Assembly (NCBI GenBank): GCA_013373245.1
Contig: JABXID010000079.1
Coordinates: 1 to 43,722 of the forward strand
DNA from: Gammaproteobacteria bacterium
GTDB lineage: Bacteria > Pseudomonadota > Gammaproteobacteria > Enterobacterales > Alteromonadaceae
Reading direction: 5' to 3'
DNA length: 43,722 nt
The notes under the pieces are model-generated. The model was not told the origin of the DNA. It did not search any database and was given only the letters and a program-made list of their open reading frames with translations. Shown piece after piece: positions 19,965 to 39,492 of this stretch. Positions within the stretch are counted from its first letter, which is position 1. Each line of letters begins with the position of its first letter. A program made the translations under genes and the position numbers.

Positions 19965-21863
19965 ATGGATTTTGTAAAAAATAATAAAAACACTTTAGGC
20001 CTAATAGCCTCTATTTCACTGTTCTGTTTGTTAGTAGTTACTTTCACATTTTTACAAGCCGAACTGTTGAAACAGCAGCAACTATTTCGTTATTCGGTTT
20101 CCTTAGCCGATGGGTTACGCCAAACATCAGACGATCTAACTCGTATGGTAAGAACCTATGCCGTGACCAAAGATGAGCGCTACAAACAACAGTTTTTAGA
20201 GGTTCTTGCAATTCGCGATGGTAAAGCGCCAAGACCAGAAAAATTTAATCAAATATACTGGGATTTGATTGGTCCCGACGGAAAGCGCCCTTACCCTTAT
20301 GGTGAAACAATCGCCCTCACCAAAAAAATGAAAAACGCGGGCATAACAGAGCAGGAACTTTCCTTATTAAACGAAGCGAAAGTAAATTCTGACGCATTAG
20401 CGATTATAGAGCAAAATGCTATGGATGCCCTTCAGGAGCAACTGCCGCCACAGCAACACCTTGCGATTATTAACTCCTTGCATGATGAAACTTATCATCA
20501 ATATAAAATGGGCATTATGAAACCAATATTCGACTTTCAACAGGCCATTGAGCAAAGACAACAAGCAAAGGTTTTGACGTTCAAACGTTATCTAGTTGCT
20601 TGTGGTGTATTTATTGTTTTGAATTTACTTATCCTAGCCTATTTCATCGCCAAGCTTTTACATTACGAAAGAAGTAAGGCGGAGCTTCTAGAAATAGAGG
20701 TTTCAAATAGAACGGAGCAATTACAAATAGCAGCTCAGAAATCGGAACTTGCGAACCAAGCTAAAACTCAGTTTTTGTCAAACATGAGTCACGAGATCAG
20801 AACGCCTATTAATGGCATATTTGGCAGCCTACAAATTCTTAAACTGCAGCTGGCGAAAGAATCAAAACAACACAAGTTAGTTGATATAGGCATAGACTCT
20901 TGTGAAAGCTTATTGAATGTAGTTGACGATGTACTCGACATCGCCAATCTCGAAGCAGGAAAAGTTGGCATTGAGTCGGAGCCTTTTGATCTAAAAGAGC
21001 TCGTAACAAGCGTTGTTAATGTGCTTAGCATCAACGCTAAAGAAAAAGCAATTGTGCTGAATTATGAAATTGATGACACGTTGAATACAAATCGCTGTGG
21101 CGATCCAAAAAGAATCAAACAAATATTACTCAACTTAACGTCCAACGCGTTAAAGTTTACCGAGCATGGAGAAATAAAGCTTAGAGTTATGCCTTCCCCA
21201 GACAGCACTGGTAATACTATTCAATTTGTAGTGCAAGATACTGGCATAGGTATGTCGCCAGAAATATTAAACAAGCTATTCGAAAAGTTTGAGCAAGCCG
21301 ACATCAGTGCCACACGAAAATATGGCGGTTCGGGATTGGGACTTGCCATTGTTAAGTCACTGCTTGAACTTATGCAAGGAGACATAACTGTAAAAAGCAC
21401 TGAAGGAAAAGGTTCGACGTTTGTCGTTAAACTTCCGCTGCCGATAAACGAGCAATCTGATAATACAAAAAGAAAAACAAGTGTAACGCCTCCAAACCTA
21501 GTTGATTGCAACATCATGGCGGCGGAAGATAACCCTATCAATCGCCAGATTTTCAGTGCGATGATCGCGGCTACTAATGCCAACGTCATTGTTGTTGAAA
21601 ATGGAGACCAAGCCGTTAACTACTGTAAACAGCAGATACCCGATTTAATATTTATGGATATACAAATGCCAGTCATGGATGGTATCGAAGCATTTAAACA
21701 TATAAAACAGCAACATCCTGACCTGCCAATTATTGCTTTAACAGCAAATGCATTACCGGACGATATAGCGCTGTATCGTCAAACAGGATTTAACGAAGTA
21801 CTCACAAAGCCACTTAATGCCGAACATTTTTACCATGTGTTAAAAACATATACTGGCGATTAA
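19965..21863 (+). CDS. Hybrid sensor histidine kinase (HisKA-HATPase-REC)
   Basis: A 632-residue inner-membrane kinase. Membrane helices at about residues 12-30 and 205-228 bracket a helical periplasmic sensor of about 175 residues ([23 protein letters not shown]). The kinase core follows: H-box [14 protein letters not shown] (phospho-acceptor about H276), N-box [16 protein letters not shown]1 VQDTGIGMS and G2 [16 protein letters not shown]-terminal receiver has acidic residues [10 protein letters not shown], phospho-acceptor Asp about 565 in [12 protein letters not shown], and Lys in LTKPLN. There is no HPt domain, so phosphate must pass to a separate HPt protein; one is encoded at 23925. 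The ligand is unknown. flgP ends 18 bp after it on the other strand. No strong RBS precedes the ATG. Confidence 0.92.
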
Positions 21864-21880
21864 CGTTGAAACTAATTGAA

Positions 21881-22351
21881 CTAGTAATAATTTACTTTTT
21901 TAATGGTACGTGGACGCGCATTAATCTGGTAGAGCTGATATACCAGTTTCATGTCTAACTCGACTTCAGTTGCATAAGTATCTCCAACAGGATAAGACTT
22001 AACAATGCGGGCGCCACGAATTACCCCTTGTACTTTTGCGCGCAATTTATCATCGGTTGCAACAAGGTTGCTAACGTCTGACTTGCCTTTAATTTGATGA
22101 CCATATACTTGTTCGGCAAGTTCACGATAGGCGTCAAGTTTCGAAGCGCGCATGGCCATAATATTTTTAATTTCTGCGCTGTCGCCAGGTTGTGCAGTGA
22201 TAGGTGCATAACCTACCGCGCGAATGATAGGAAAGTTTTTAGGTTCTTCATATTGCCAAACAACATGTTTATCTAAAAACATGCTACAGCCGGATATGGA
22301 CATCAGCAATAATATGCCTGCAATTTGCTTTATTACGTTTGTGTATTTCAT
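21881..22351 (-). CDS. flgP: Flagellar assembly lipoprotein FlgP (LPP20 family)
   Basis: A 156-residue outer-membrane lipoprotein starting MKYTNVIKQIAGILLLMS, with lipobox SISGC. The mature part shows the LPP20-type pattern AVGYAPITAQPGDSAEIKNIMAMRASKLDAYRELAEQVYG broken across two strands and a helix, then VQGVIRGARIVKSYPVGDTYATEVELDMKLVYQL. In Vibrio, FlgP with FlgO and FlgT builds the outer-membrane-associated H ring of the polar flagellum. Divergent flgT next door supports the name. The track begins at 22387; the ATG at 22351 gives a proper signal peptide. In Vibrio flgO is with flgP; here the next gene downstream is a histidine kinase, so flgO is not in this window. Confidence 0.85.
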   Translation of the reverse strand: MKYTNVIKQIAGILLLMSISGCSMFLDKHVVWQYEEPKNFPIIRAVGYAPITAQPGDSAEIKNIMAMRASKLDAYRELAEQVYGHQIKGKSDVSNLVATDDKLRAKVQGVIRGARIVKSYPVGDTYATEVELDMKLVYQLYQINARPRTIKKVNYY

Positions 22352-22530
22352 TAACCCAAATCTCACTTCGCCATCAACATAGAGCACTATCTATTGAAAT
22401 CTGTTGCTCAAATTCATTTACTTGTGTTGTCCACATTCAAATTCTAAGCCAATGTAATTTGACGCATTTTCACAACAGATAAAACTCTATATAAACAGCA
22501 ACTTAATCTCAAACAAATAACAAAATCCGC

Positions 22531-22547
22531 TTGGCGTAATACTTGCT
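22531..22547 (+). promoter_or_regulatory. Sigma-54 (RpoN) promoter of flgT
   Basis: TTGGCGTAATACTTGCT matches the -24/-12 consensus, with GG and GC separated by exactly 10 bases. Transcription would begin near 22558-22560, about 40 nt before the proposed flgT start. RpoN control is known for polar-flagellar genes in Vibrio and relatives. Confidence 0.7.
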
Positions 22548-22597
22548 ACTTATCCATTGAATTTATTAAGTTAAGACTATCTGACGGTTTTTTGTCT

Positions 22598-23845
22598 ATG
22601 TTAATTATGTCGCTTTCCAAACTAAAATTGCTAATTAAATACACGTTATCATATGCCGAGCTAAAGGCTGTTCGAGCGCTATTAATGTGCCTAATGTTGT
22701 GCGCCACCAGTTTTGCCGCCAATGCTGATTGGTATGAAGCAACTGGACAAGCAGCTGTCAGACACGGTGATGTAAAAAGTGCCAAAAACCGTGCATTACA
22801 AGATGCCATAAAACAAACCATGTTATTTGCAGGCGCTAATGTTGCTAGCGTGCAAAAAATGTCACAAGGTTTATTAATAGACGATTACACTCAAATATAC
22901 GCACAAGGTTCAGTAAATCAGATTGAAATCATTGATGAATCATACCGCGGCAACACCGTAAGTATTACTATTCGTGCCGACATTTTTGCCGATGATGAAA
23001 AATGTTACTCTTCGGAATTCAGCAAAAAAGTTGCCATCACTCAGTTTCCAATTCAACATTGGCAGGACGCTAAAATTGGCAATTTGTATGGGTTAGAAAA
23101 AGAGTTACCACGAAAAATAGCCGCTATGTTTAAAGGCTCAGGTGCTATTTATCCAATCGCGTGGTTACAAAAAAAACTCAATGTTGAGATGGATTTTGAA
23201 CAACAAGGCCGAGTTCGTCATCAAATGCTAGACGCCGTCGCAACTCAAGCAAACGCTCAGTTTGTTATGATAGGTCGAATATCGGATTTATCATTCGGTG
23301 ACAAGACCAATGGGTTAATGTTCTGGCAAGATGACTTATACGAACGTTTTTTTTCGATGGATATTATTATCGCCAACGCCTTAACAAACGAAGTGTTATA
23401 TCAAAACCGATTCCATACTTCTGCAGAATGGGAATACGATAAACGTGAAGAAGTAAATATAAACAGCCGACAGTTTTGGAACAAACAGTATGGCAAGTCC
23501 ATAGAAGAGTTATTGGCTGACGCGCGTAACGACATTTTGGCTAATTTGAGTTGCCAACAATTACAAAGCAAAATTTTATCCGTTCGAGATGGTGAACAAG
23601 TACACCTCAACATTGGCCTTGGTCAAGGTGTGGCGGTCGGTCAAGAGTATAGAGTGTCTTATCGCGCTGACGTTATTGATGATAACGGCAACTTGTTAAC
23701 CAACTTCGTTATTAGCCCTTATCGTGTGCGCATTACTCAAGTATACGAAAACTCTGCGATTGCTGAATCGTTAGATGCCGACTTCATGAATAATGTGCAG
23801 GTAAATGATGTAATCGAGCTAAAAAGCTGGGACGACGGCTGGTAA
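22598..23845 (+). CDS. flgT: Flagellar H-ring protein FlgT
   Basis: FlgT is a periplasmic protein that builds the H ring around the basal body of the polar flagellum and helps T-ring and stator assembly. The sequence has an N-terminal export signal (LLMCLMLCATSFAANA) preceding DWYEATGQAAVRHGDVKSAKNRALQDA, the start of the FlgT N-terminal domain. A middle domain follows (VAITQFPIQH, AQFVMIGRISDLSF, FFSMDIIIANALTNEVLYQ). The C-terminal domain includes VHLNIGLGQGVAVGQEYRV. The track begins at a TTG (22592); the ATG at 22598 or 22607 is likelier, giving about 415 residues. The leader before the signal core is unusually long (about 25 residues), so a start further in is possible. It is divergent from flgP and has a sigma-54 promoter candidate. 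Confidence 0.88.
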   Translation: MLIMSLSKLKLLIKYTLSYAELKAVRALLMCLMLCATSFAANADWYEATGQAAVRHGDVKSAKNRALQDAIKQTMLFAGANVASVQKMSQGLLIDDYTQIYAQGSVNQIEIIDESYRGNTVSITIRADIFADDEKCYSSEFSKKVAITQFPIQHWQDAKIGNLYGLEKELPRKIAAMFKGSGAIYPIAWLQKKLNVEMDFEQQGRVRHQMLDAVATQANAQFVMIGRISDLSFGDKTNGLMFWQDDLYERFFSMDIIIANALTNEVLYQNRFHTSAEWEYDKREEVNINSRQFWNKQYGKSIEELLADARNDILANLSCQQLQSKILSVRDGEQVHLNIGLGQGVAVGQEYRVSYRADVIDDNGNLLTNFVISPYRVRITQVYENSAIAESLDADFMNNVQVNDVIELKSWDDGW

Positions 23846-23924
23846 AATAAACGCCCCCTAATGTTGATAGTATTTGTAATTATGCTTTAATAAAATCATT
23901 GTGTTTTGAATAAAGTTAAAATGT

Positions 23925-24284
23925 ATGTCTTTGGAAAGCTTAAAAACAATTGACGGTATTGATGCTGAACAAGGTCTGGTCAATTGCATGGATGATGAAG
24001 GGTTGTATTTATCAATTGTCGGTATGTATGTCGATCAAATATCTGAGTACTTACCCTTATTTGCTGAGCATTATGACAACGAGCAATGGGAAGAATACGG
24101 CAAACTCGCGCACTCTGTAAAAGGCGCGTCTGCCAGTGTAGGTGCAACCTCAATCCAAGAAGTTTCAGCAGAACTTGAAGCTGCGGCAAAACAACAAAAC
24201 ATCGCCGTCATTCAAGAGAAACACAGTTCATACATTGAGCTGTTAACTGACACGTTATCGAAATTACAAGCAAGTGTGTTATAG
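23925..24284 (+). CDS. Stand-alone histidine phosphotransfer (HPt) protein
   Basis: A 119-residue all-helical cytoplasmic HPt protein. The phospho-acceptor His is H63 in LAHSVKGASASVGA, the standard HxxKG(A/S) pattern. Flanking helices read MYVDQISEYLPLFAEHY and VSAELEAAAKQQN. It relays phosphate from a hybrid kinase's receiver domain to a response regulator. The hybrid kinase at 19965 ends in a receiver and lacks its own HPt, which makes it a plausible partner, though flgP and flgT lie between them. The kinase at 24453 has no receiver, so it is not an obvious donor. The start ATG at 23925 has only a weak RBS. The gene stands alone, with a possible hairpin 80 bp after its stop. Confidence 0.88.
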   Translation: MSLESLKTIDGIDAEQGLVNCMDDEGLYLSIVGMYVDQISEYLPLFAEHYDNEQWEEYGKLAHSVKGASASVGATSIQEVSAELEAAAKQQNIAVIQEKHSSYIELLTDTLSKLQASVL

Positions 24285-24452: not shown

Positions 24453-27113
24453 ATGGATTCAGCTATCGGTCAGTTTTTGCGTGGCGATTACATGCCCCAC
24501 GGTCATTGTTACATGTGGCAACCTCATATTTTGTGGACACATGTCTTGTCGGACTTACTCATTGCAACGGCCTATTTTTCAATACCTGTGGCCATTCTAA
24601 TGTTTATGAAAAAACGCAAGGATATAGGTTATAACAGTGTCTTTGTTTTGTTCTCACTGTTTATTTTGTTCTGCGGTATTACACATTTATTTGGCATCTG
24701 GACCATTTGGCAAGGCGTTTATGGATACCACGGTATAGCCAAAGCATTCACAGCAGGGATATCAATTATTACCGCTTTTTATCTTTACAAACTACTACCA
24801 GGCCTTTTAAAAGTGCCAACTCCGGCAGAAGTCGAAGGGATGAAAACAGAGATTGGAGCATCGAAACAAGAAAATCTAAAACTCACTTCACTGCTAGAAA
24901 AGCACCAACAAACACGTTGGTTAATCGACACCATAAATTTAAGTTTAGTGTTAATCAATGAATCAGGCCAGATAGTGTTCCGCAACAAAAAGTTCGAACA
25001 AGAGTTTAGTACCGACAATACTACGATGGACGAGCTTCTTTACGACGCGTCAAGTGAACTTCAAAATACATTAAGCGCACAAGTTCAAGCCATTGAAGTA
25101 GATGTTCCTCGCACTTTCATTGGCAAAGTGAAAACACGTGCGCATATTTCCAACGCAGAAATAACTGTGACAAAAAAAGAGTATGACGAGCATTTCCATT
25201 TGCTAGTAACCATAAAAGACTTAAAAGAAATCTATGCACTTAAAGACGAACTTGTCGAGTCTAACGCTCGTTTTGAACGAGCGTTAAAGGCAACGAATGA
25301 TGGTATTTGGGAATGGAACATCCATACCGGTGAACAAAATTGGTCGGAGCAAATGTTTGATTTGGTCGGAGCGGATCCCTCTTCCACGCCTACATATAAA
25401 CTCTGGTTTGATCATATACACCCAATGTTCCAAGATGATGTGCAAGAAGCAGTTGACCAACATCTGCAACAAGGTGAAAGGTATGAAGTTGAATATTTAG
25501 GCCTAGACAACCACGGAAGTTACCGCTGGTTTTTAGCAAGGGGAAATTCGATTCCTGACGAACATGGTAATCCAATAATCATGGCAGGTTCATTGCGCTA
25601 TATCGATGAAGAAAAACAAGCTAAACGATTATTAGAAGAACGCACCGAATACCTTGAAGCACTTTATAAAGGCTCGAATCACGCTATCTGGGTTGCAAAA
25701 GCGGTCGGTTCAGACTTTGAATATACTCTTTTTAACGATACCGCTTTAAAATGGACCAATACCAAGAAAAATCAAATCATCAGTAAAAAAGTGTCGGAAC
25801 TAACGCAATTCCCAGAAGACTTCAAACAGCATGTATTAGAAAAGTACAGTGAATGTTTAACCACCAAATTACCGGTGGAATATATTGAATCTTTCCCATT
25901 TGAAGGCAAACCACACTGGTTCCAAACCTCTCTTTACCCTATCAAAAACGACGAAACCGATTTTTGCCATAGCATTTTAGGCACCGCTGTTGATATCACA
26001 CAGCAAATAGAAGCGCAGCAAGCTGTAGAAGATAACCACCAGTTTCTCACCAATTTATTAGATAATTCCGTTTGTGGTTTTTACTTATTTAACTATTCCA
26101 CTATGCAAAACGAACGCATCAACAAAGCATATACTGACATTCTCGGATATAGCCTAGAAGACTTGCAATCAGATAAAAACTTCATGGCCAAATTTCACCC
26201 AGATGATATACAAGATGTTGAACATCATATAGAACAAGTGGCTAAGTCCAATTTAGGAGACAAGCACCCGCTGGAGTATCGTTTTAAACACAAAGATGGA
26301 CACTGGGTATGGTGTTATTCGGTCGACTCAATCATAGAAGTTGATAACGATGGAAAACCTCAAGTGATGCTGGGCACATTTGTTGATGTCAGTGATAAAA
26401 ATGAGTTACTTCGCCAGTTGCAGCAATCCAACGAATATTTAGAGCAGTTTGCCTTTGTCGCTTCGCACGACTTACAGGAGCCGTTGCGTAAAATCACTGC
26501 GTTTAGCGAGTCATTACAGCAGCGACTAACCCCACTATTAGCTGAGTCACCTGATGCAAAATATGAGCTAACACGCTTACAGCAGTCTGCAATCCGTATG
26601 AGTATGATGATCGAAGACTTACTCAAACTTTCTAGAATTAATACCAACAACCTACGATTAAAATCAGAGTCCTTAGATGTGGTATTGGGTTCAGTGTTCG
26701 AGCGGTTAGAGTTACGCATTCAAAAGTCTAATGCAGAAATTACGACAGCCAATACCAACACAATTATCTATGCCGACATAGGGCTATTAGAGCAGTTATT
26801 GCAAAACCTTGTTGGCAATGCACTCAAGTTTGTTAAAGCAGGTGAAACACCTAAAGTTGATATCACGGTAACGGATTTAGCGACCAGCGTGGAAATATCA
26901 ATTAAAGATCAAGGCATAGGCATGAAGCCTGAGAGTATTAAACGTATCTTCGATCCTTTCAAACGTCTGCATTCAAGAGAAGAATTTGATGGCAGCGGTA
27001 TTGGTTTAGCGATTGTTTCACAAATAGTAAAAGCCCATAAAGCGACTATTATTTGTAATAGTGAAGAAGGTAAAGGCAGTGAATTTGTTGTTTCTTTTCC
27101 TAAGGAGATGTAA
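24453..27113 (+). CDS. Sensor histidine kinase with ethylene-receptor-type membrane domain and several PAS domains
   Basis: An 886-residue inner-membrane kinase. Residues about 25-120 form three helices closely matching the ethylene-binding domain of plant ETR1 and SynEtr1: SDLLIATAYFSIPVAI, then FILFCGITHLFGIWT, then AKAFTA. Residues D34, Y41, I44, P45, C74, H78 and K97 correspond to ETR1 D25, Y32, I35, P36, C65, H69 and K91; the Cys and His hold Cu(I). No GAF domain follows. Instead there are about four PAS-like modules (roughly 160-260, 280-400, 405-525 and 530-645; the second and fourth are clear PAS/PAC). The kinase core is of phytochrome-like type: FVASHDLQEPLRKI (H672), LLQNLVGNALKFV, KDQGIGMKPE, GSGIGLAIV. 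The ATG at 24453 has AAAGGA six bases upstream; the track's 24414 is too early. Its stop overlaps the next gene by one base. Whether ethylene is the ligand is untested. Confidence 0.9.
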   Translation: MDSAIGQFLRGDYMPHGHCYMWQPHILWTHVLSDLLIATAYFSIPVAILMFMKKRKDIGYNSVFVLFSLFILFCGITHLFGIWTIWQGVYGYHGIAKAFTAGISIITAFYLYKLLPGLLKVPTPAEVEGMKTEIGASKQENLKLTSLLEKHQQTRWLIDTINLSLVLINESGQIVFRNKKFEQEFSTDNTTMDELLYDASSELQNTLSAQVQAIEVDVPRTFIGKVKTRAHISNAEITVTKKEYDEHFHLLVTIKDLKEIYALKDELVESNARFERALKATNDGIWEWNIHTGEQNWSEQMFDLVGADPSSTPTYKLWFDHIHPMFQDDVQEAVDQHLQQGERYEVEYLGLDNHGSYRWFLARGNSIPDEHGNPIIMAGSLRYIDEEKQAKRLLEERTEYLEALYKGSNHAIWVAKAVGSDFEYTLFNDTALKWTNTKKNQIISKKVSELTQFPEDFKQHVLEKYSECLTTKLPVEYIESFPFEGKPHWFQTSLYPIKNDETDFCHSILGTAVDITQQIEAQQAVEDNHQFLTNLLDNSVCGFYLFNYSTMQNERINKAYTDILGYSLEDLQSDKNFMAKFHPDDIQDVEHHIEQVAKSNLGDKHPLEYRFKHKDGHWVWCYSVDSIIEVDNDGKPQVMLGTFVDVSDKNELLRQLQQSNEYLEQFAFVASHDLQEPLRKITAFSESLQQRLTPLLAESPDAKYELTRLQQSAIRMSMMIEDLLKLSRINTNNLRLKSESLDVVLGSVFERLELRIQKSNAEITTANTNTIIYADIGLLEQLLQNLVGNALKFVKAGETPKVDITVTDLATSVEISIKDQGIGMKPESIKRIFDPFKRLHSREEFDGSGIGLAIVSQIVKAHKATIICNSEEGKGSEFVVSFPKEM

Positions 27114-27508
27114 TGAATCTAATTTTAGTTGATGACGACCCCGACGAGGCGTACATTTTAAAACAAGCGTTAACACAAATAGACGAGGCACTTGATCTTA
27201 TTTATTTTGAGAGCGGAGACTCACTGTTACCGGCGATAAAAAGCGTTGCGGACAAAAAAAGCGTTGTCTTGCTTGACCTTAACATGCCCCACTATAGCGG
27301 CATCGATTTACTTAAAAACATTAAAAAGGATACCAAACTCAATAATACCCCTGTGATCATGTATTCAAACTCTAGTAGCCCACAGGACATCCAAAAATGT
27401 TATGACAACGGAGCAAACTCCTACGTTAAAAAACCGCAAGGTTTAGGTGATACCAAAGAGTTTTTAAGTGTATTATCGAATTATTGGCAAAGGATTAATA
27501 AAACATGA
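27113..27508 (+). CDS. Single-domain response regulator (Rcp1-like)
   Basis: A 131-residue receiver domain with no output. The acidic pocket is VDDDPDEAYIL, the phospho-acceptor is D55 in VVLLDLNMPHYSG, and the conserved Lys is in SYVKKPQ. The insert after the phospho-Asp (IKKDTKLNNTPVIMYSNSSS) is typical of the Rcp1/phytochrome-associated regulators that pair with kinases having the HDLQEPL-type H-box. Its ATG overlaps the stop of the kinase (TAATG), and its own end overlaps the next gene (ATGA), so all three are translationally coupled. Its likely job is to take phosphate from the kinase and act by protein contact, or to serve as a phosphate sink for the GGDEF regulator. Confidence 0.93.
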   Translation: MNLILVDDDPDEAYILKQALTQIDEALDLIYFESGDSLLPAIKSVADKKSVVLLDLNMPHYSGIDLLKNIKKDTKLNNTPVIMYSNSSSPQDIQKCYDNGANSYVKKPQGLGDTKEFLSVLSNYWQRINKT

Positions 27509-28419
27509 ATGAATCGCCATCATTGAACAACAACCAAATGGTTTATTTATTGGAAGATGATAAAGATGATGCCTATTTGATCAGCAAAGCATTGCAAAGC
27601 GATCACTTAATGAAACATTCAGTGCTCACTTTTGATTCACTGGAAAGCATTGTTAACGCACTGAAAAACTTAACCCCCGATATCATATTAATGGACTTGA
27701 ATGTTTCAGACAGCGACGGCTTTGACACCATGTTGACCGTAAAACAGCATGCGCTCGGAGTACCGATTGTTGTAGTTACCGGTATTGATGATGCGACATT
27801 AGGCGATAGACTGATTCAACTGGGTGCGCAAGATTACATTCCTAAAAGTGAGCTTTCCGCGTCATTGTTACAACGAGTCATTCGCTTCTCAAAAGAGAGA
27901 CATTTGTTATTAAAAGCGTTAGAAAACTCAGTAAATAAAGATAACTTAACTAAATTGTACAGCCGTAAAGCATTACATCTAAAAATAGAAGAGCTTATCG
28001 ATCACGCTCGCCGTTATGAGGATTCTTTTGCTCTATTGTTTGTCGACTTAGACAACTTCAAACCTGTTAATGACATTCACGGCCATGATGCTGGAGATCA
28101 ACTTTTACAGCACATAGCTAACCGGCTGCATATGTTTAGTCGCTCAACAGACTTTGTCGCTCGGTATGGCGGAGATGAATTTGTTACCGTATTACCTCAC
28201 ATAAAAAGTCTTAATGAAGCTCAACAAGCCGGGAAACAACAACTTAAATCTATATGCGGAGATTATTTCGTTACTGACTTACAAGGCAAAGCACAAAAAG
28301 TCGAAGTGAGTGCAAGCATGGGCTACGCCATATACGAAGAACACGGGACAACCGCTACAGACTTATTGAAAGCGGCAGATGAAGCTATGTATGACGTTAA
28401 AGTACAAAAGAAAAACTAA
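27505..28419 (+). CDS. Response regulator with diguanylate cyclase output (REC-GGDEF)
   Basis: A 304-residue cytoplasmic protein. The receiver spans about residues 10-130 (YLLEDDKDDAYLI, phospho-acceptor Asp in IILMDLNVSDSDG, Lys in YIPKSE). A short helix joins it to a GGDEF domain starting at DNLTKLYSRKAL. The catalytic motif RYGGDEFV is intact, as is the substrate region FVDLDNFKPVND. The product-inhibition I-site RSTD lies five residues before it. It should therefore make c-di-GMP from two GTP, with feedback control. It starts inside the stop of the preceding regulator (ATGA overlap of 4 nt), which ties it to the ethylene-receptor-type kinase. The receiver has GVPIVVVTG at the usual Ser/Thr position. 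The operon ends after this gene; the next starts 59 bp later. Confidence 0.95.
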   Translation: MNESPSLNNNQMVYLLEDDKDDAYLISKALQSDHLMKHSVLTFDSLESIVNALKNLTPDIILMDLNVSDSDGFDTMLTVKQHALGVPIVVVTGIDDATLGDRLIQLGAQDYIPKSELSASLLQRVIRFSKERHLLLKALENSVNKDNLTKLYSRKALHLKIEELIDHARRYEDSFALLFVDLDNFKPVNDIHGHDAGDQLLQHIANRLHMFSRSTDFVARYGGDEFVTVLPHIKSLNEAQQAGKQQLKSICGDYFVTDLQGKAQKVEVSASMGYAIYEEHGTTATDLLKAADEAMYDVKVQKKN

Positions 28420-29332: not shown

Positions 29333-30472
29333 TTAGAGCGCCTTGAATTGGGCATAGACGACTTCATTAGGCTGTAAATTGAGTCGGTGAAGAGAAAGCT
29401 TAGAGATTTGCGCAAACAATCTTTGCTCACCGACCGATAAACTCACCAACGCCATATGCTCCTGCTCACAAATATTCAGGACCTTACCTTTTAGTTGATT
29501 TAACATGCTGGTATCAGCGTTAAAATGGCGTGAAATACTTACTTGATCGGCATCCAGTGTGATGCGTTTTTGTTGCACTATCACATCATCATTTTGTATC
29601 TGTGGTGTTTTATTAATGGCCTCAGCAACAACTTGTTTAAAATAGATATGCTGCTGAGGAGCATCAGACAGAGCCCATTGGCTTAAACGGTACTCTGGCA
29701 AACACCTTTGAAAACAAAGGGTTAAATTCGAGAACACAGGCTGCCCAGCTATTTGCCCTAGCTCGTTTATCAAATCAGCGGTGTTGCCGTGTTCCTCTGC
29801 ATGGCCCTGTCGAATACACAACATATAATCCGTAGCAATTGCCAACTCCTTTAAAGAATGGCTAACCAGAACAAAACAAATATTAAAGCGTCGAGCAATT
29901 TCAGGCAATAGCGTCAAAAATGAAATTCGTGTTTGCCAATCAAGCGCAGAAAATGGCTCGTCCAACAAAACAATTGGTTTGCCAGACAACAAACTTCTGG
30001 CGATAGCGACGCGCTGTTGTTCGCCACCTGACAAAGCATCAACCGATTTGTGAATTATAGGCTTTAAATTAAACCACTGAATAACATCGTGAATACTAAT
30101 ATCACGACTGACTTTATGCTCGCTAACCGTTTGTTTTTCTGTGCGCCAATACGAGTGTTTAATAACAAATTCTAAATTTTGTAACACTGTTAAATGAGGA
30201 AACAATAAAGCTTTTTGACGGTTCAACACACAAGGATTCTGCTCTGCAATCGAATGATTGCAACCGATAGATACACCATAAACATCAGATAATCCGTGAC
30301 TACCCAATTGGTAATTCGCTTGTTTTTCTAAACCAGCGAGAATACGCAACAGAGTTGATTTGCCGTGCCCTGAAGCGCCAAACACTCCAATCACCGAGCC
30401 TTTGCCGTGTAAGTCTAATTCGACTTCGAGTTTCAATTCATTTATTTGATGACTAACAGAAACTTGCAACAT
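29333..30472 (-). CDS. modC: Molybdate ABC transporter ATP-binding protein
   Basis: ModC is the cytoplasmic ATPase that powers molybdate import with ModB. The sequence has Walker A GASGHGKST, signature LSGGEQQRVAIARSL, Walker B PIVLLDEPFSAL and the switch His in VLVSHSLKE. A C-terminal extension of about 140 residues ends in a TOBE-like oxyanion-sensing domain (LKGKVLNICEQEHMALVSLSVGEQRLFAQISKLSL). At 379 residues it is near the usual length (E. coli 352). The region after Walker A carries a longer insert (SHGLSDVYGVSIGCNHSIAEQ) than is typical. It is the last gene of the PBP-modA-modB-modC run, 22 bp after modB. Confidence 0.93.
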   Translation of the reverse strand: MLQVSVSHQINELKLEVELDLHGKGSVIGVFGASGHGKSTLLRILAGLEKQANYQLGSHGLSDVYGVSIGCNHSIAEQNPCVLNRQKALLFPHLTVLQNLEFVIKHSYWRTEKQTVSEHKVSRDISIHDVIQWFNLKPIIHKSVDALSGGEQQRVAIARSLLSGKPIVLLDEPFSALDWQTRISFLTLLPEIARRFNICFVLVSHSLKELAIATDYMLCIRQGHAEEHGNTADLINELGQIAGQPVFSNLTLCFQRCLPEYRLSQWALSDAPQQHIYFKQVVAEAINKTPQIQNDDVIVQQKRITLDADQVSISRHFNADTSMLNQLKGKVLNICEQEHMALVSLSVGEQRLFAQISKLSLHRLNLQPNEVVYAQFKAL

Positions 30473-30494
30473 GTCACCCTGTCCTAATGTTCAT

Positions 30495-31172
30495 TTAGCG
30501 AATATCCGCAAGCGGTCGATTAAATTTGTATAACAACAATAAACTCAAAAACGAACAAAGCAGCAATAGCGCCGCCAGGTTATGCGCTTGTTGATATTCC
30601 AATAACTCAACATGATTATAAAGCGCTATCGACAGCACCTGCGTTTCACCTGGTATATTCCCGCCTATCATTAGCACTAACCCAAATTCACCGAGCGTAT
30701 GAGCAAAACCAAGGGTCGCTGCGCTTATGATGCTAGGTTTTAATAACGGCAATAATAAATAAGCAAAACGCTTCCAAGTGACTATGCCTAAACTGGCGGC
30801 TTGTTGTTCAAATGCTTCGCCCAATTGCGATAATCCACTCATTAATGGCTGCATTACAAAAGGTAAGGAATAAATCAAAGAACCTAACAATATACCGGTA
30901 AAACTGAACGTTAACTGCTCCCCGGTGACTTGCAACCAAGCATTACCTAACCAAGCATTTGGTGAAAAGGCCATTAAAAGATAAAAACCCAATACGGTAG
31001 GCGGCAGAACTAAAGGCAAAGTTATCAACGCTTCAATTACGGGTTTAAAACGGCCTTGATACTTATTAAGTAGCCAAGCTGCTGGCAGGCAAACCATTAA
31101 TAAAATAACAACGGTTAACATCGCTAACTTTAGGGTCAACCAAAGTGCCTGCAAATCAATATCCCATGACAT
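30495..31172 (-). CDS. modB: Molybdate ABC transporter permease
   Basis: A 225-residue inner-membrane permease with five or six hydrophobic segments. It starts with LALWLTLKLAMLTVVILLM-like sequence and the ModB hallmark LPLVLPPTVLGFYLL. The cytoplasmic EAA loop reads EQQAASLGIVTWKRFAYLLLPLLKPSI, followed by LGFAHTLGEFGLVLMIGGNIPG, all typical of ModB/CysT proteins. It forms the membrane channel that takes molybdate from ModA, driven by ModC. Its ATG shares one base with the modA stop (TGATG), so the two are coupled. The length equals that of E. coli ModB within a few residues. Confidence 0.95.
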   Translation of the reverse strand: MSWDIDLQALWLTLKLAMLTVVILLMVCLPAAWLLNKYQGRFKPVIEALITLPLVLPPTVLGFYLLMAFSPNAWLGNAWLQVTGEQLTFSFTGILLGSLIYSLPFVMQPLMSGLSQLGEAFEQQAASLGIVTWKRFAYLLLPLLKPSIISAATLGFAHTLGEFGLVLMIGGNIPGETQVLSIALYNHVELLEYQQAHNLAALLLLCSFLSLLLLYKFNRPLADIR

Positions 31173-32014
31173 CAGCCAGCTCCTTGTATATTTGTGATTG
31201 GTTGATAGCCCAAGTTTGCCAATTTTTTCTGCACTTGCGGAGAGGCAATATACTCGACAATTTTACGTAACCTGTCATTCTCATTTACCGAGCGCTGCTT
31301 TTTTAGAATAACGACTTGTTGTTCAATCGGCATATAAAATTTAGGTTCAACCACTTGATAGTTTTGATATTTACGGGGTTGCATAGCTTGCTGAGCTTGT
31401 ATCATTTGCGATTCTGAAAGAAATGCGACATTGGCATTCCCTGTATCAACAAACTGAAACGCCTGATTAATATTAGATGCTCGCAACAATCGCTTGGAAA
31501 AAGTAGTCATTAAACCTGTGGTCGCCAGAACCTCCATCGCGGCTTTCCCAAAAGGAGCCAGTTTTTCATTTGCGATTACCAACTTACCTTTATAGTTTTG
31601 TAATGAAGATACCGTTTGCATGTTTGGTTCTGTCGACCAAAACACCAGCTTACCGCGGGTATAAGTTTGTCTAAATTGAGTCAGCGCCATCTGCTCTAAT
31701 TTTTTTGGCCGTGTTACATCCGCAGCAAAAAATATATCAAACGGCGCACCATGAGTTATTTGACTAAACAACGTACCTGTCGCACCAGATGATAGGACAA
31801 AGTCGCAATCTGACTGCGCTATCGCTTCCGCTTTAGATGAACAATCTAGATCACCTAACAACTGCTGCAAGGTATGATAAAAATTACTGGCTACCGCAAC
31901 TTTAATGGTTTCAGCTGACACTTGAGTCACTGAACTCAGCATACCGCCACACAAAATCAGTAATTTTATTTTAAACCAACAACGCACCAGCAAACTGAGT
32001 CTCCTATTACTCAT
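31172..32014 (-). CDS. modA: Molybdate ABC transporter substrate-binding protein
   Basis: A 280-residue periplasmic protein that binds molybdate or tungstate. A signal peptide ends near TQVSAE (about residue 35). The mature start TIKVAVASNFYHTLQQLL is typical of ModA, as are FVLSSGATGTLFSQITHGAPFDIFFAADVTRP (broken across the hinge), GKLVFWS and VDTGNANVAFLSESQM. The Ser and backbone contacts for oxyanion binding are in VASN and SSGATG. Its ATG lies within the end of the upstream PBP gene (8-nt overlap), implying translational coupling; no independent RBS is evident. The N-terminal region before the hydrophobic core is basic (MSNRRLSLLVRCWFKIK), as expected for export. Confidence 0.94.
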   Translation of the reverse strand: MSNRRLSLLVRCWFKIKLLILCGGMLSSVTQVSAETIKVAVASNFYHTLQQLLGDLDCSSKAEAIAQSDCDFVLSSGATGTLFSQITHGAPFDIFFAADVTRPKKLEQMALTQFRQTYTRGKLVFWSTEPNMQTVSSLQNYKGKLVIANEKLAPFGKAAMEVLATTGLMTTFSKRLLRASNINQAFQFVDTGNANVAFLSESQMIQAQQAMQPRKYQNYQVVEPKFYMPIEQQVVILKKQRSVNENDRLRKIVEYIASPQVQKKLANLGYQPITNIQGAG

Positions 32015-33095
32015 TTACTAATAAATGGGAAAGATTAAAATCGTAATGGCTTAGTTGTGGATTGTACGTTTTTGACATGGCTTTGAAATTAACTTGGTGC
32101 CAGTCCCCCTTTAACAAACGCAGCAGTGAAGGTGCATTTTTTTTATCCACTATAAAAAATGGACTTTCCAAGCTGTTGGCGTGTTGTGCTTTTTGATTAT
32201 AAATATCAAAGGCAACTATCAGTGCCCAAGCTCCATGCATCTGATTACCACCCAGTGTAATATCAATTTGCTCGTTAATTACCGCCTGCACCCCTTTGAT
32301 GGTTGCGTCTACACCGCCTATCGTTACGTTATTTACATCATCATCTAATAAATCACGCAGACACTGCGCCGCTGTTATCGCAATATCGTCATTGGCAGCC
32401 CAAACTATGTCGGCTTTGCCATGACGATGATATAACTCGGTACACATGCGATAAGCCTTGCCAGGATTCCAATCGGTAAACACACTTTGTTGATAATAAA
32501 GATCATTGTACTGAGCTAACGCTTTTTGCAAGCCATCGTTGCGCTCTAATGACGACTCCATTACTCGACCTCCCGCTAAAGCGACTAACTTCAAAGGCCT
32601 TTGCGCTGTCTTTTTCAAGGCAATAGCTCGCAATGCCTGCGCCAACATCTCACCAGAGGCGGTATCATCGGAAGTAATTTGTGCTTTCCAGAATTTGTAA
32701 TTTGCTTGTGGCAACCCAACTTTCGCTCGCTCACTGCGAGGTATTTCATTAACGATAGAAATAAAAGGGATTTGTTTCTTTTCCAGCAAGTTTAACAACG
32801 GCTTGCTGGACGCTGCTCGAAAAGGCGATATAAGAAAGTCTGGCGGCGTGTCACTGTTAACAATTTTTGTGACTTCATCAAAATAACTGAAACGATTGTT
32901 ATAATCCGCATAATAAACACTTAAGTTAATGCCAAGTTGTTTCGCCACTTCTGGCATCGGCGCAACAAGGTTATCCCAAAATGCATTTTCACCTTTCGTA
33001 TGGCCGACATACGCGACATTCATTAGTCTTTTAGGCCCTTGTGCAAGTAAAGAGTTACTAACCAGCAATAACAAGATGCAAACAATCTTTAACAA
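32007..33095 (-). CDS. Type-1 periplasmic binding protein (sugar-binding/Peripla_BP_4-like)
   Basis: A 362-residue exported protein. The signal peptide LVSNSLLAQG ends near residue 19. The mature part reads as a LacI/ribose-binding-type fold: NVAYVGHTKGENAFWDNLVAPMPEVAKQLGI, PPDFLISPFRAASSKPLL, KLVALAGGRVMESSLERNDGLQKAL, ADIVWAANDDIAITAAQCL and VTIGGVDATIKGVQAV. Such proteins bind sugars or autoinducers, either for an ABC transporter or for a sensor kinase. No sugar permease is nearby, and the gene is tightly coupled to modA (8-nt overlap), which is unexpected. The start is TTG at 33095, with AGAGGT five bases upstream. A promoter candidate at 33138-33167 would drive it together with modABC. 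The ligand is unknown. Confidence 0.85.
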   Translation of the reverse strand: MLKIVCILLLLVSNSLLAQGPKRLMNVAYVGHTKGENAFWDNLVAPMPEVAKQLGINLSVYYADYNNRFSYFDEVTKIVNSDTPPDFLISPFRAASSKPLLNLLEKKQIPFISIVNEIPRSERAKVGLPQANYKFWKAQITSDDTASGEMLAQALRAIALKKTAQRPLKLVALAGGRVMESSLERNDGLQKALAQYNDLYYQQSVFTDWNPGKAYRMCTELYHRHGKADIVWAANDDIAITAAQCLRDLLDDDVNNVTIGGVDATIKGVQAVINEQIDITLGGNQMHGAWALIVAFDIYNQKAQHANSLESPFFIVDKKNAPSLLRLLKGDWHQVNFKAMSKTYNPQLSHYDFNLSHLLVNE

Positions 33096-33137
33096 AAAGT
33101 ACCTCTTAAAACTATTCTTTTAAACGACCGATAAAAC

Positions 33138-33167
33138 CTTATACCAATTATTGGCCTGATTTAACAA
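33138..33167 (-). promoter_or_regulatory. Promoter candidate for the PBP-modABC operon
   Basis: On the minus strand: TTGTTA (-35), an 18-bp spacer, TATAAG (-10). It lies 43 bp before the TTG start of the binding-protein gene and after the moaE stop, which suggests modABC can be transcribed apart from the moa genes. I did not find a convincing ModE site. Confidence 0.5.
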
Positions 33168-33204
33168 GCATTGCATTCGATGGCATAAAATAATCATACG
33201 TGTA

Positions 33205-33648
33205 TTACCACTTCTTAAGTGCGTCTTTATCTTTTTGTTGTGCCTCAACCCAATGACAGCCTTGCTTAGTTGTTTCTTTTTTCCAAAACGGCGCATCGTT
33301 TTTTAAATAATCCATGATAAATTCAGTCGCTGCAAATGCCGATTCTCTATGAGGACTGGAAATCCCAACAAATACGATTTGATCGCAAATCTTCAGTGAT
33401 CCGACGCGGTGTATAATTGTAACCCGATTGATTGGCCAACGCTCTTTTGCTTTTTGCTCTATCCCTTTTAGCGCTTTTTCGGTCATGCCAGGATAGTGTT
33501 CCAGTGTTAATCCGGTGACACCTTGCCCTTGATTAAAATCACGAACGCGTCCAATAAAAGTCACTACGGCACCGTCTTGCGCATTATTCTCAGTGAGCTT
33601 TTGATATTCGACCGCTAGATCAAAGTCAGCCTCTTGCACAACGACCAT
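33205..33648 (-). CDS. moaE: Molybdopterin synthase catalytic subunit
   Basis: MoaE, with thiocarboxylated MoaD, inserts two sulfurs into cPMP to make molybdopterin. At 147 residues it has the usual length (E. coli 150). Family motifs are VVTFIGRVRDFNQGQGVTGLTLEHYPGM (split), ALKGIEQKAKERW, IIHRVGSLKICDQIVFVGISSPHRESAF, and the catalytic Lys region YLKNDAPFWKKE. The C-terminus WVEAQQKDKDALKKW is typical. A GGAGG precedes the ATG. It follows moaD with a one-base gap between stop and start. Confidence 0.96.
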   Translation of the reverse strand: MVVVQEADFDLAVEYQKLTENNAQDGAVVTFIGRVRDFNQGQGVTGLTLEHYPGMTEKALKGIEQKAKERWPINRVTIIHRVGSLKICDQIVFVGISSPHRESAFAATEFIMDYLKNDAPFWKKETTKQGCHWVEAQQKDKDALKKW

Positions 33649-33649
33649 A

Positions 33650-33904
33650 CTAACCTCCGGTCACCGGCGGAAAAAAAGCGACTTCGTCACCATCTTCTAC
33701 ACTGAAACTTTCGACAACCAAATCATGGTTTACCGCCATCAATACGTGTCCGTCCGCTAAGCTTTTTTGCCAAACTGAACCTTTGCTACTCAGTGCTGAC
33801 TTAACTTCACTAACAGTTACACTCTCACTGGGAAATGAAAGAGTTAGCTCACCACAGCCAAGTTTTTCTTTTAATTGTGCAAAGAATTTAACTTGAATGT
33901 TCAT
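33650..33904 (-). CDS. moaD: Molybdopterin synthase sulfur-carrier subunit
   Basis: An 84-residue ubiquitin-fold protein. It begins [20 protein letters not shown], has [10 protein letters not shown] near the middle, and ends in the diagnostic FFPPVTGG. The C-terminal Gly-Gly is adenylated by MoeB and then carries the sulfur as a thiocarboxylate. Its start overlaps the end of moaC by 17 nt, indicating coupling. moeB is not in this window. The size matches E. coli MoaD (81 aa). Confidence 0.95.
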
Positions 33905-34373
33905 TTTTCCAATGTCCGTTTTTACCGCCTACCTTTTCCAACACCTTAATACCGAAGATTTCCATACTTGGGTCCGATGCTTTACACATGTCAAACAGGG
34001 TTAACACCGCCACACTTACCGCGGTCAAAGCCTCCATTTCAACGCCAGTTTTGCCAGTCAGCTTGCACATAGCTTCAACTCGAATACACTGTTCAGCAGC
34101 TTGTATTTCAAAGTTCACATCCACTTTTGACAATGCTAATGGATGACACAGCGGAATAAGGTCTGCACACTTTTTTGCTGCCTGAATTCCTGCAATTTTA
34201 GCCGTTGTGATCACGTCCCCTTTTTTATTGGTATGCGAGATAACTTGTTCGATAGTTTCGCCGGACATTTTAATAAAACCTTCCGCCACCGCTATTCTGA
34301 CAGTTTGCGTTTTATCGGTAACATCCACCATATTGGCTTGCCCGGACTGATCCACGTGAGTTAATACCGACAT
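33888..34373 (-). CDS. moaC: Cyclic pyranopterin monophosphate synthase
   Basis: MoaC turns the MoaA product (3',8-cyclo-7,8-dihydro-GTP) into cPMP. At 161 residues it has the usual length. Conserved stretches are [54 protein letters not shown] (split; includes the active-site LCHPL), [25 protein letters not shown] with the catalytic Lys in the loop that follows, and [10 protein letters not shown]. It is transcribed from moaB with only a 2-bp gap and overlaps moaD. Nothing is unusual in the protein. Confidence 0.97.
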
Positions 34374-34375
34374 GG

Positions 34376-34915
34376 TTAGCCCCTTGTTTCACATTCAACA
34401 GCATCAACTTTTTTCAACTGACCGACAAAATTACAAGGTTTGTGAGTTGAATTAAGTTGCGATTCGATAATTGACCAGGCCGTTCTGCACGCGCCTGTGG
34501 AACCCGGCATACAAAAAATTACCGTACCATTAGCAAGACCTGCTAACGCACGAGATTGCATGGTCGATGTGCCAATTTCGTCATAAGATATATGACGGAA
34601 TAACTCACCAAAGCCATCAACTGTTTTATCCAGCAAAGGCGTAATGGCCTCTGGCGTAGAATCTCTTTGGGTAAATCCAGTACCACCTGTGATCAATACA
34701 GCTTGAATATTACTCGATGCAATCCAGCCAGATACCACTGCGCGCATTTGATAAATATCGTCTTTCACAATCTTTTTTGCCGCTAACTGATGGCCCGCGT
34801 TGCTGAGAAGCTCGACCAAGGCTTTACCAGATGTATCGGTGTCTTCATTTCGGGTATCCGACACAGTTAATATCGCGACATTGAGGGGAACAAATGAAGC
34901 TGCTGGTTTTGTCAT
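34376..34915 (-). CDS. moaB: Molybdenum cofactor biosynthesis protein B
   Basis: A 179-residue MogA/MoaB-fold protein. Motifs are [39 protein letters not shown] (the MPT-binding GGTG loop) and [25 protein letters not shown], with the C-terminal [14 protein letters not shown]. The family adenylylates molybdopterin (MogA) or has a less clear role (E. coli MoaB). The operon position between mobA and moaC, and the length, fit the moaB name; a MogA-like activity is possible because no mogA is visible here. An AGGAG lies just upstream of the ATG. The gap to moaC is 2 bp and to mobA 30 bp. Confidence 0.92.
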
Positions 34916-34945
34916 GTACGCTCCTATTTCCTAATTTTTTATTGT

Positions 34946-35614
34946 TTAACTTTTTATAAATCTTTGTTTTTCTATGTAGCCAACGGCTTGTTGCCACTGA
35001 GCTGGGTCGTTTACATTCGACAAACAATTGTTCGGTAAATCATCAGTTGATAGTTCATGTAACGCAATTTGCTGAATAAAACGCCTAATAGACAAGCTCT
35101 TTTTATCGCTAACTGAAGATGTTAACCGGTGTGTTAAATCATCACGTAACAATTCAGTGTTGGGTAAAAACAACGGCAAAATATGATCTTGGTAACATAC
35201 TGCATTGTCAGTACCTGGTTCAGCTGAAAAGCTCGCATCAACTATGTTGCGTAATTGTGTCGACGTTAGAAGTGGCATATCGACAGGAATAATCAATAAG
35301 GGCAATTCGGTCTTACTCATAGCTGCATCTATGCCCGCCAAAGGCCCCTTGTTTTTAAATCGGTCTGTTACGACTTGCAAATCAACTTCATCAAAACTTG
35401 GTGATGCCAATGCCAGTTCAGAGTGAGCACTCACTAGCAACTCGGTAGCTCCGGTGTTGTTTAACAAGGTTACCGCTCGTTGCAACAATGTTTTGCCGTT
35501 CAGCTCCAATTGCGACTTATCTTGCCCCATTCGAGATGAGCGACCACCAGCAAGCACCAAACCAGCAAAAGGTTTTGCAAGTTTAAAACTATCGCCTATG
35601 ACGAAACTATTCAT
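34946..35614 (-). CDS. mobA: Molybdenum cofactor guanylyltransferase
   Basis: MobA links GMP to Mo-molybdopterin, giving the dinucleotide cofactor of DMSO-reductase-family enzymes. The nucleotidyltransferase signature AGLVLAGGRSSRMGQDKSQL is near the N-terminus. It is followed by VTDRFKNKGPLAGIDAAM and LIIPVDMPLLTS (metal-binding Asp), and a C-terminal VNDPAQWQQA. From the ATG at 35614 it is 222 aa; the track's start at 35617 is a TTG one codon earlier. An AAGGCG lies seven bases upstream. It sits between moaA and moaB, 11 bp after the moaA stop. Its presence suggests the cell makes the guanine-dinucleotide cofactor form. Confidence 0.94.
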   Translation of the reverse strand: MNSFVIGDSFKLAKPFAGLVLAGGRSSRMGQDKSQLELNGKTLLQRAVTLLNNTGATELLVSAHSELALASPSFDEVDLQVVTDRFKNKGPLAGIDAAMSKTELPLLIIPVDMPLLTSTQLRNIVDASFSAEPGTDNAVCYQDHILPLFLPNTELLRDDLTHRLTSSVSDKKSLSIRRFIQQIALHELSTDDLPNNCLSNVNDPAQWQQAVGYIEKQRFIKS

Positions 35615-35625
35615 CAAATTACGCC

Positions 35626-36597
35626 TTAACCACCAATACTGGCAAAGTGCTGATTTATGCCAGTAATGTTCTGCTGTAATTCGTGGCTGAGTTTTTTATT
35701 CGACATTGATGCAATGACATCTAGTTTTGTTTGTTCGATATCTCGCTCTTTAAGGCTACTGCGCAAATCGATACCTTGCTCGGTGAACAAACACAAATGA
35801 AGCTGACCATGCGACGATACACGCAAACGATTACAGGTCTGACAAAAGTCATTGCTGTAGGGCATGATAAGTCCAATCTTGCCTGCATATTCGGCATGGT
35901 AAAATTCTTGTGCAGGCCCTGCTAGTTTATCGCGGATCACCTGACTCCAACCTTGGTCCAGTAATTGTTGTTTCAGTATTGAGCCTGATACATGGTTTTG
36001 CTGAAAATATAGCTGATTTGAGCCGGTCTCCATTAATTCTATGAAACGAACTGTTATGGCGTTGTCTCGCAGCCAAGCTAGATAATCGTCAAACATCGAC
36101 AAATTAAACTGTTTAAGCAACACAGCGTTTAACTTAATCTTATCAAAACCCAAGGCTTGCGCTTTAGTGATACCAGCTAAAATATTTTCGAGTTTGCTGC
36201 TGCCGGTAATGGTTTCAAACATTCTAGGGTCTAAACTGTCGGCGCTGACATTCAAATTGGTTAATCCAGCGTTTAACCATTGTTCAATTTTTTTTTCTAA
36301 ATTAAACCCGTTCGTCGTCAACGCGACTTGCTCAATACCCGGAGTATTTGCACACAGTGCGATGATATCGGTGAGATCTTTACGAAGGGCTGGCTCGCCG
36401 CCAGTGATGCGAACTTTTTTGGTGCCGAGTTGCGCAAAAGCGCTGACCAAGGTCTGAATTTCAGACAGTGACATATAATCCCGCTCTCCCAAACAGTCAT
36501 AGCCGTCGGGCAGGCAGTAGTTGCAACGGAAATTGCACGCGTCAGTAATGGACAGGCGCAAGTATTCAAACTTGCGACCGAAGTTATCTTGTAACAT
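35626..36597 (-). CDS. moaA: GTP 3',8-cyclase
   Basis: MoaA is a radical-SAM enzyme that starts molybdenum cofactor synthesis from GTP. The N-terminal cluster motif is DACNFRCNYCLP (CxxxCxxC). The SAM-binding ITGGEPALRKDL follows, then the second cluster with QTCNRLRVSSHGQLHLCLF. The usual C-terminal GG is present (ASIGG), which activates the enzyme with MoaC in relatives. The track starts at 36660; the ATG at 36597 (MLQDNFGRKFEYLRLS) is right by homology and has GGAAAGGTG just upstream. From there it has 323 residues, a typical length. It heads the moaA-mobA-moaBCDE operon and has a structured leader. Confidence 0.96.
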   Translation of the reverse strand: MLQDNFGRKFEYLRLSITDACNFRCNYCLPDGYDCLGERDYMSLSEIQTLVSAFAQLGTKKVRITGGEPALRKDLTDIIALCANTPGIEQVALTTNGFNLEKKIEQWLNAGLTNLNVSADSLDPRMFETITGSSKLENILAGITKAQALGFDKIKLNAVLLKQFNLSMFDDYLAWLRDNAITVRFIELMETGSNQLYFQQNHVSGSILKQQLLDQGWSQVIRDKLAGPAQEFYHAEYAGKIGLIMPYSNDFCQTCNRLRVSSHGQLHLCLFTEQGIDLRSSLKERDIEQTKLDVIASMSNKKLSHELQQNITGINQHFASIGG

Positions 36598-36682
36598 AAC
36601 ACCTTTCCAAATGCGGGAGGCCGACGACATTTCTCTCGTGACCCTGGCAATCTGCAACATTCATAACTACTCAACAAGACTA
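36598..36682 (-). ncRNA. Structured moaA leader, candidate molybdenum-cofactor (Moco) riboswitch
   Basis: On the minus strand the moaA leader reads GGGTCACGAGAGAAATGTCG, then TCGGCCTCCCGCATTTGGAAAGGTG directly before the ATG, so the structure would include the ribosome binding site. The block CCTCCCGCA...GGAAAGG resembles my recollection of the 3' part of the Moco RNA motif found upstream of moaA in other gammaproteobacteria. From the nearest promoter candidate the leader is only about 80 nt, short for that class, so it may be partial or the transcript may start further upstream. Confidence 0.45.
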
Positions 36683-39392: not shown

Positions 39393-39492
39393 GCGTAGCT
39401 CCCTTTGCAGCACGTCGGATTTGAGTAACTTATCTCTCTATTAAATACTGATTAAACGCATTTGCCAAGGCTGATGCTAATAATCGACTAGA

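Follow-up and report, generated by a model that had tools for sequence, protein, structure and literature searches.

The window (the whole analysed stretch of 43,722 nucleotides) comes from a marine gammaproteobacterium, as the first-pass annotation had supposed. At positions 24453-27113 of the forward strand it carries a gene for a sensor histidine kinase of 886 aa, for which Pfam gives the architecture ETR1_N, three PAS domains, HisKA and HATPase_c. The ATG codon at 24453 is preceded by AAAAGGA, and both the open reading frame and the residue numbering proposed earlier proved correct. The ETR1_N three-helix membrane domain (Pfam PF25487) is encoded by positions 24528-24815 and holds the putative copper/ethylene residues D34, Y41, I44, P45, I71, C74, H78 and K97. 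It is preceded by an N-terminal segment (24453-24524) with the motif PHGxCxxW (P15, H16, G17, C19 and W22). The PADLOC matches obtained with this protein concerned its generic kinase ATPase part only.

Two further genes follow on the same strand: (i) a single-domain receiver of 131 aa (27113-27508), whose start shares one base with the stop of the kinase gene, and (ii) a REC-GGDEF diguanylate cyclase of 304 aa (27505-28419), which begins 4 bases before the end of the lone receiver gene. The phospho-acceptors of the two receivers were assigned by sequence to D55 and D64, respectively. The GGDEF motif of the cyclase and its RxxD I-site, correctly spaced from GGDEF, are both intact. The genes thus have the features of a two-component unit with a response regulator-diguanylate cyclase as its output, namely adjacency, an intact catalytic motif and conservation as a unit. 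Among the 32 HisKA matches in the source genome, two (this kinase included) are followed on the same strand by a GGDEF gene at a distance of up to 2 kb, and in a third case a GGDEF gene lies just upstream.

Upstream of the kinase gene, positions 19965-24284 encode a hybrid kinase (HK-REC), an LPP20 lipoprotein, FlgT and an Hpt protein standing alone, possibly the relay partner that the hybrid kinase lacks. The reverse strand carries a molybdenum block (29333-36660), composed of a ModC-type ABC ATPase gene (judged from its sequence) followed by MoaE, MoaC, MoCF, MobA-like and MoaA-like genes. It also carries a second c-di-GMP enzyme gene of the window (36852-39413), encoding a 7TMR-DISM receptor whose EAL domain is strong and whose GGDEF domain is weak and probably degenerate.

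The membrane domain of the kinase

The first-pass annotation had described a gammaproteobacterial histidine kinase with a copper-binding domain of the ethylene-receptor type and had proposed an HMM search. This search placed residues 26-121 in PF25487 (E=2.1e-35; 121 bits, cut-off 27), so the assignment lies far beyond chance. A profile search of the whole source genome revealed a single copy of the domain (E=1.1e-36). No rival family was found for the helices in Pfam, NCBIfam or the PDB sequences; NCBIfam holds no model for the ETR1_N domain, and the PDB sequence search with the kinase gave no match. A Foldseek search with the AlphaFold2 model returned insignificant matches only (best E 0.9), and these searches yielded no solved structure of an ETR1 membrane domain. 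In the model itself (mean pLDDT 82.5), three long helices (24-54, 61-86 and 90-118) agree with the three-helix N-terminus described earlier, and a short helix (16-20) stands before them. Helices 1 and 2 are linked by the Lys/Arg-rich loop KKRKD, which suggests that the N-terminus lies outside, facing the periplasm like the copper site.

The residues were assigned by anchoring the alignment on AzoEtr1 of Azospirillum brasilense Sp7 (locus L075), whose D35, C75, H79 and K98 correspond to D25, C65, H69 and K91 of ETR1; in our kinase D34, C74, H78 and K97 each lie one position before their AzoEtr1 counterparts. All seven residues that ETR1 needs for ethylene binding (D25, Y32, I35, P36, I62, C65 and H69) are present, as D34, Y41, I44, P45, I71, C74 and H78, and K97 is present too. 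The copper of ETR1 has been located at Asp25, Cys65 and His69 by XAS and mutagenesis (PMC12643061). The earlier list contained D34, Y41, I44, P45, C74, H78 and K97, all of which were found in the ORF, and lacked I71. Its claim of matching spacing held for D34-x6-Y41, for the step of 29 from P45 to C74 and for C74-x3-H78, but not for K97, which reaches ETR1 K91 only via a gap of three residues: the step from H78 to K97 is 19, compared with 22 in ETR1 (69-91), and it is also 19 in AzoEtr1 (H79-K98).

Conservation was assessed in an alignment of 69 bacterial rows, among them two from duplicate genomes and a number of closely related Pseudomonas sequences. C74 and H78 are each kept in 67/69 rows, Y41 in 64/69, and D34 and K97 each in 61/69; copper ligands are missing in certain members of the family (L047, L070, L071 and L073). 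The profile match, the AzoEtr1 alignment and the per-residue conservation together support the ETR1-type domain described at the outset; from these residues we infer ethylene binding by the kinase, although ligand specificity is not readable from residues alone.

The motif preceding helix 1

Directly before helix 1 we observed the sequence PHGHCYMW (24492-24521), which is near-invariant in bacterial ETR1_N proteins. In the same 69 rows P15 and H16 are each kept in 65, G17 in 67, and C19 and W22 each in 66, i.e. as strongly as the copper core residues. The copper core is broken in 5/5 rows lacking H16 or C19 versus 3/62 in which both are present (Fisher p=6e-6, a value to be taken as a guide only, because the alignment rows are related). 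Plant ETR1 presumably has the Cys alone at this position. The segment is expected to face the periplasm and may serve in copper capture or in dimer linkage; it is possibly a second metal site or a copper-entry motif.

Conservation of the kinase-cyclase cassette

The order kinase-REC-REC-GGDEF is kept in Pseudoalteromonas (58% kinase identity), Alteromonas (43%) and Psychrosphaera (40%). In a hand count from the locus list, covering 24 non-redundant Alteromonadales-type loci of the family and the order, 15 had the ETR-kinase, a REC and a REC-GGDEF or REC-GGDEF-EAL gene on one strand. The lone REC was detected in 14 of these, the fifteenth (L091) having room for it, and GGDEF and the I-site are intact in all 15. 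The other nine loci comprised four with a divergent REC-GGDEF gene, one with a convergent REC-GGDEF-EAL gene, one direct ETR-GGDEF fusion and three with none of these, so that a c-di-GMP enzyme adjoins or is fused to ETR1_N in 21/24 loci.

Against an assumed background of 10%, the binomial probability of 15/24 is approximately 3e-10 for loci that share descent. In the domain tree most cassette loci group in a single clade (19 rows, support 98/98), and the 15 cases are therefore not independent events; this tree is short and weakly resolved, and served only to identify the nearest kin of the source kinase. In the neighbourhood comparison no cyclase neighbour was found beside the Pseudomonas and Azospirillum relatives. 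Direct fusions of ETR1_N were seen to GGDEF-EAL in two members of the class and to GGDEF in one family member. Such kinase-free fusions, to GGDEF or GGDEF-EAL in other gammaproteobacteria (L083, L098 and L101), represent an alternative route from this sensor to c-di-GMP.

Profile matches to ETR1_N above the cut-off, counting the source genome, occurred in 16/61 genomes of the relatives sample, 10/274 of the class sample and 23/299 of the phylum sample, and homologues in many proteobacteria are already on record in the literature. It was fair to call such a domain little explored in a marine gammaproteobacterium, but it is not rare, and these counts and publications make the ETR1_N member itself ordinary. 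The domain family is known already; the point of interest is the wiring of the receptor to the cyclase. No mention of a conserved ETR kinase-cyclase pairing was found in the literature searched, and we claim no priority.

Proposed function and alternatives

Cyclic di-GMP is the second messenger that governs the switch between swimming and biofilm. We propose, with a probability of roughly 0.6, that the kinase senses ethylene or a small alkene in a Cu(I)-dependent manner and controls c-di-GMP via the co-encoded receivers. Cu(I) would be held by C74 and H78, together with D34 (paired to K97), in the ETR1-type three-helix domain, and ethylene or a similar small alkene would be sensed through the bound copper. 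Ligand binding would change how strongly the cytoplasmic kinase autophosphorylates, most likely reducing it, in line with ETR1 and with the proposals for SynEtr1 and AzoEtr1. Ethylene inhibits the kinase activity of ETR1; indirect evidence indicates the same for SynEtr1, and for AzoEtr1 it is predicted by the authors of that work. Phosphate from the kinase would pass to the lone receiver and the REC-diguanylate cyclase, so that ethylene would leave less kinase phosphate, a less active cyclase and a lower c-di-GMP level; the gas would thereby set the balance of attachment and motility. Copper loading, the ligand, phosphotransfer to these partners and the sign of the response are thus what we infer, and the three PAS domains may bring in a second signal.

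The sign may differ between organisms: the biofilm response to ethylene is opposite in Synechocystis (more) and Azospirillum (less). In Azospirillum both c-di-GMP and biofilm fall in response to ethylene, an effect for which the cassette offers a testable route. Proof of bacterial ethylene sensing comes from only a few organisms. Here the conserved operon of a proteobacterial receptor also encodes the cyclase, the likely link to behaviour, which opens the question to direct tests in marine bacteria that can be cultured. Alkenes are stated to arise photochemically in seawater (Ratte and colleagues, as cited in PMC6682694), which makes ethylene plausible as a marine cue. More tentatively, Alteromonadales-type marine bacteria might possess a dedicated ethylene-to-c-di-GMP pathway in which the bacteria-specific His/Cys motif loads or caps the copper site.

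The domain might instead bind Cu(I) and respond to another natural signal (another alkene, CO, oxygen, redox state or periplasmic copper) with the c-di-GMP output retained. We regard this as unlikely, though it deserves to be taken seriously: the copper ligands are conserved, yet pocket residues cannot prove ethylene, and PHGxC, whose loss coincides with that of the copper core, adds a His and a Cys before helix 1 that are fit for copper capture. The same motif, however, occurs in the ethylene-binding AzoEtr1, the non-ligand residues that mutagenesis links to ethylene binding (Y41, I44, P45 and I71) are retained, and the tested bacterial relatives react to ethylene at the ppb level.

There is little likelihood that the membrane domain has become a relic for structure or dimerisation, its fold kept but its sensing lost, with the signal carried by the three PAS domains of the same kinase. 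The four family members that lack copper ligands would suit such a relic, but they are visibly degenerate elsewhere too, and this kinase and almost all of its close relatives retain all eight positions even though identity over the whole domain drops to 40%. Slimmer still is the chance that REC and REC-GGDEF serve another kinase and that the receptor output is not c-di-GMP: the receivers might, for example, answer to the hybrid kinase (19965-21863) via Hpt (23925-24284), the genes of which lie 2.6 kb and 0.2 kb upstream of the ETR kinase, respectively, but the relatives in Pseudoalteromonas, Alteromonas and Psychrosphaera, which keep kinase-REC-REC-GGDEF, showed neither of the upstream Hpt and FlgT genes as neighbours.

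Comparison with known ethylene receptors

The closest described system is AzoEtr1/AzoRR-etr1 of Azospirillum brasilense (PMC11819568). AzoEtr1 residues 1-130, expressed in yeast, bind 14C-ethylene, and cells in which the gene is disrupted lose binding. The source kinase shares with it an ETR1_N domain with identical spacing of D, C, H and K, the PHGxC motif, the combination of PAS and histidine kinase, and an overlapping downstream gene for a lone receiver. In contrast, AzoEtr1 has one PAS domain and 525 aa, compared with three PAS domains and 886 aa here, and no diguanylate cyclase was found adjoining its gene.

SynEtr1 (slr1212) of Synechocystis, compared by description, likewise carries an ethylene-binding domain on a histidine kinase that feeds a response regulator. 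It differs in being also a photoreceptor and in signalling via slr1213 to a small RNA (PMC11819568, PMC6682694).

Plant ETR1 has the same three-helix copper/ethylene domain, with the seven essential residues and K91. It differs in its His-to-Lys step (22 compared with 19), in presumably lacking the PHGxC histidine, in a Cys pair that makes the dimer disulfide, in its GAF domain and in its kinase-independent signalling to CTR1.
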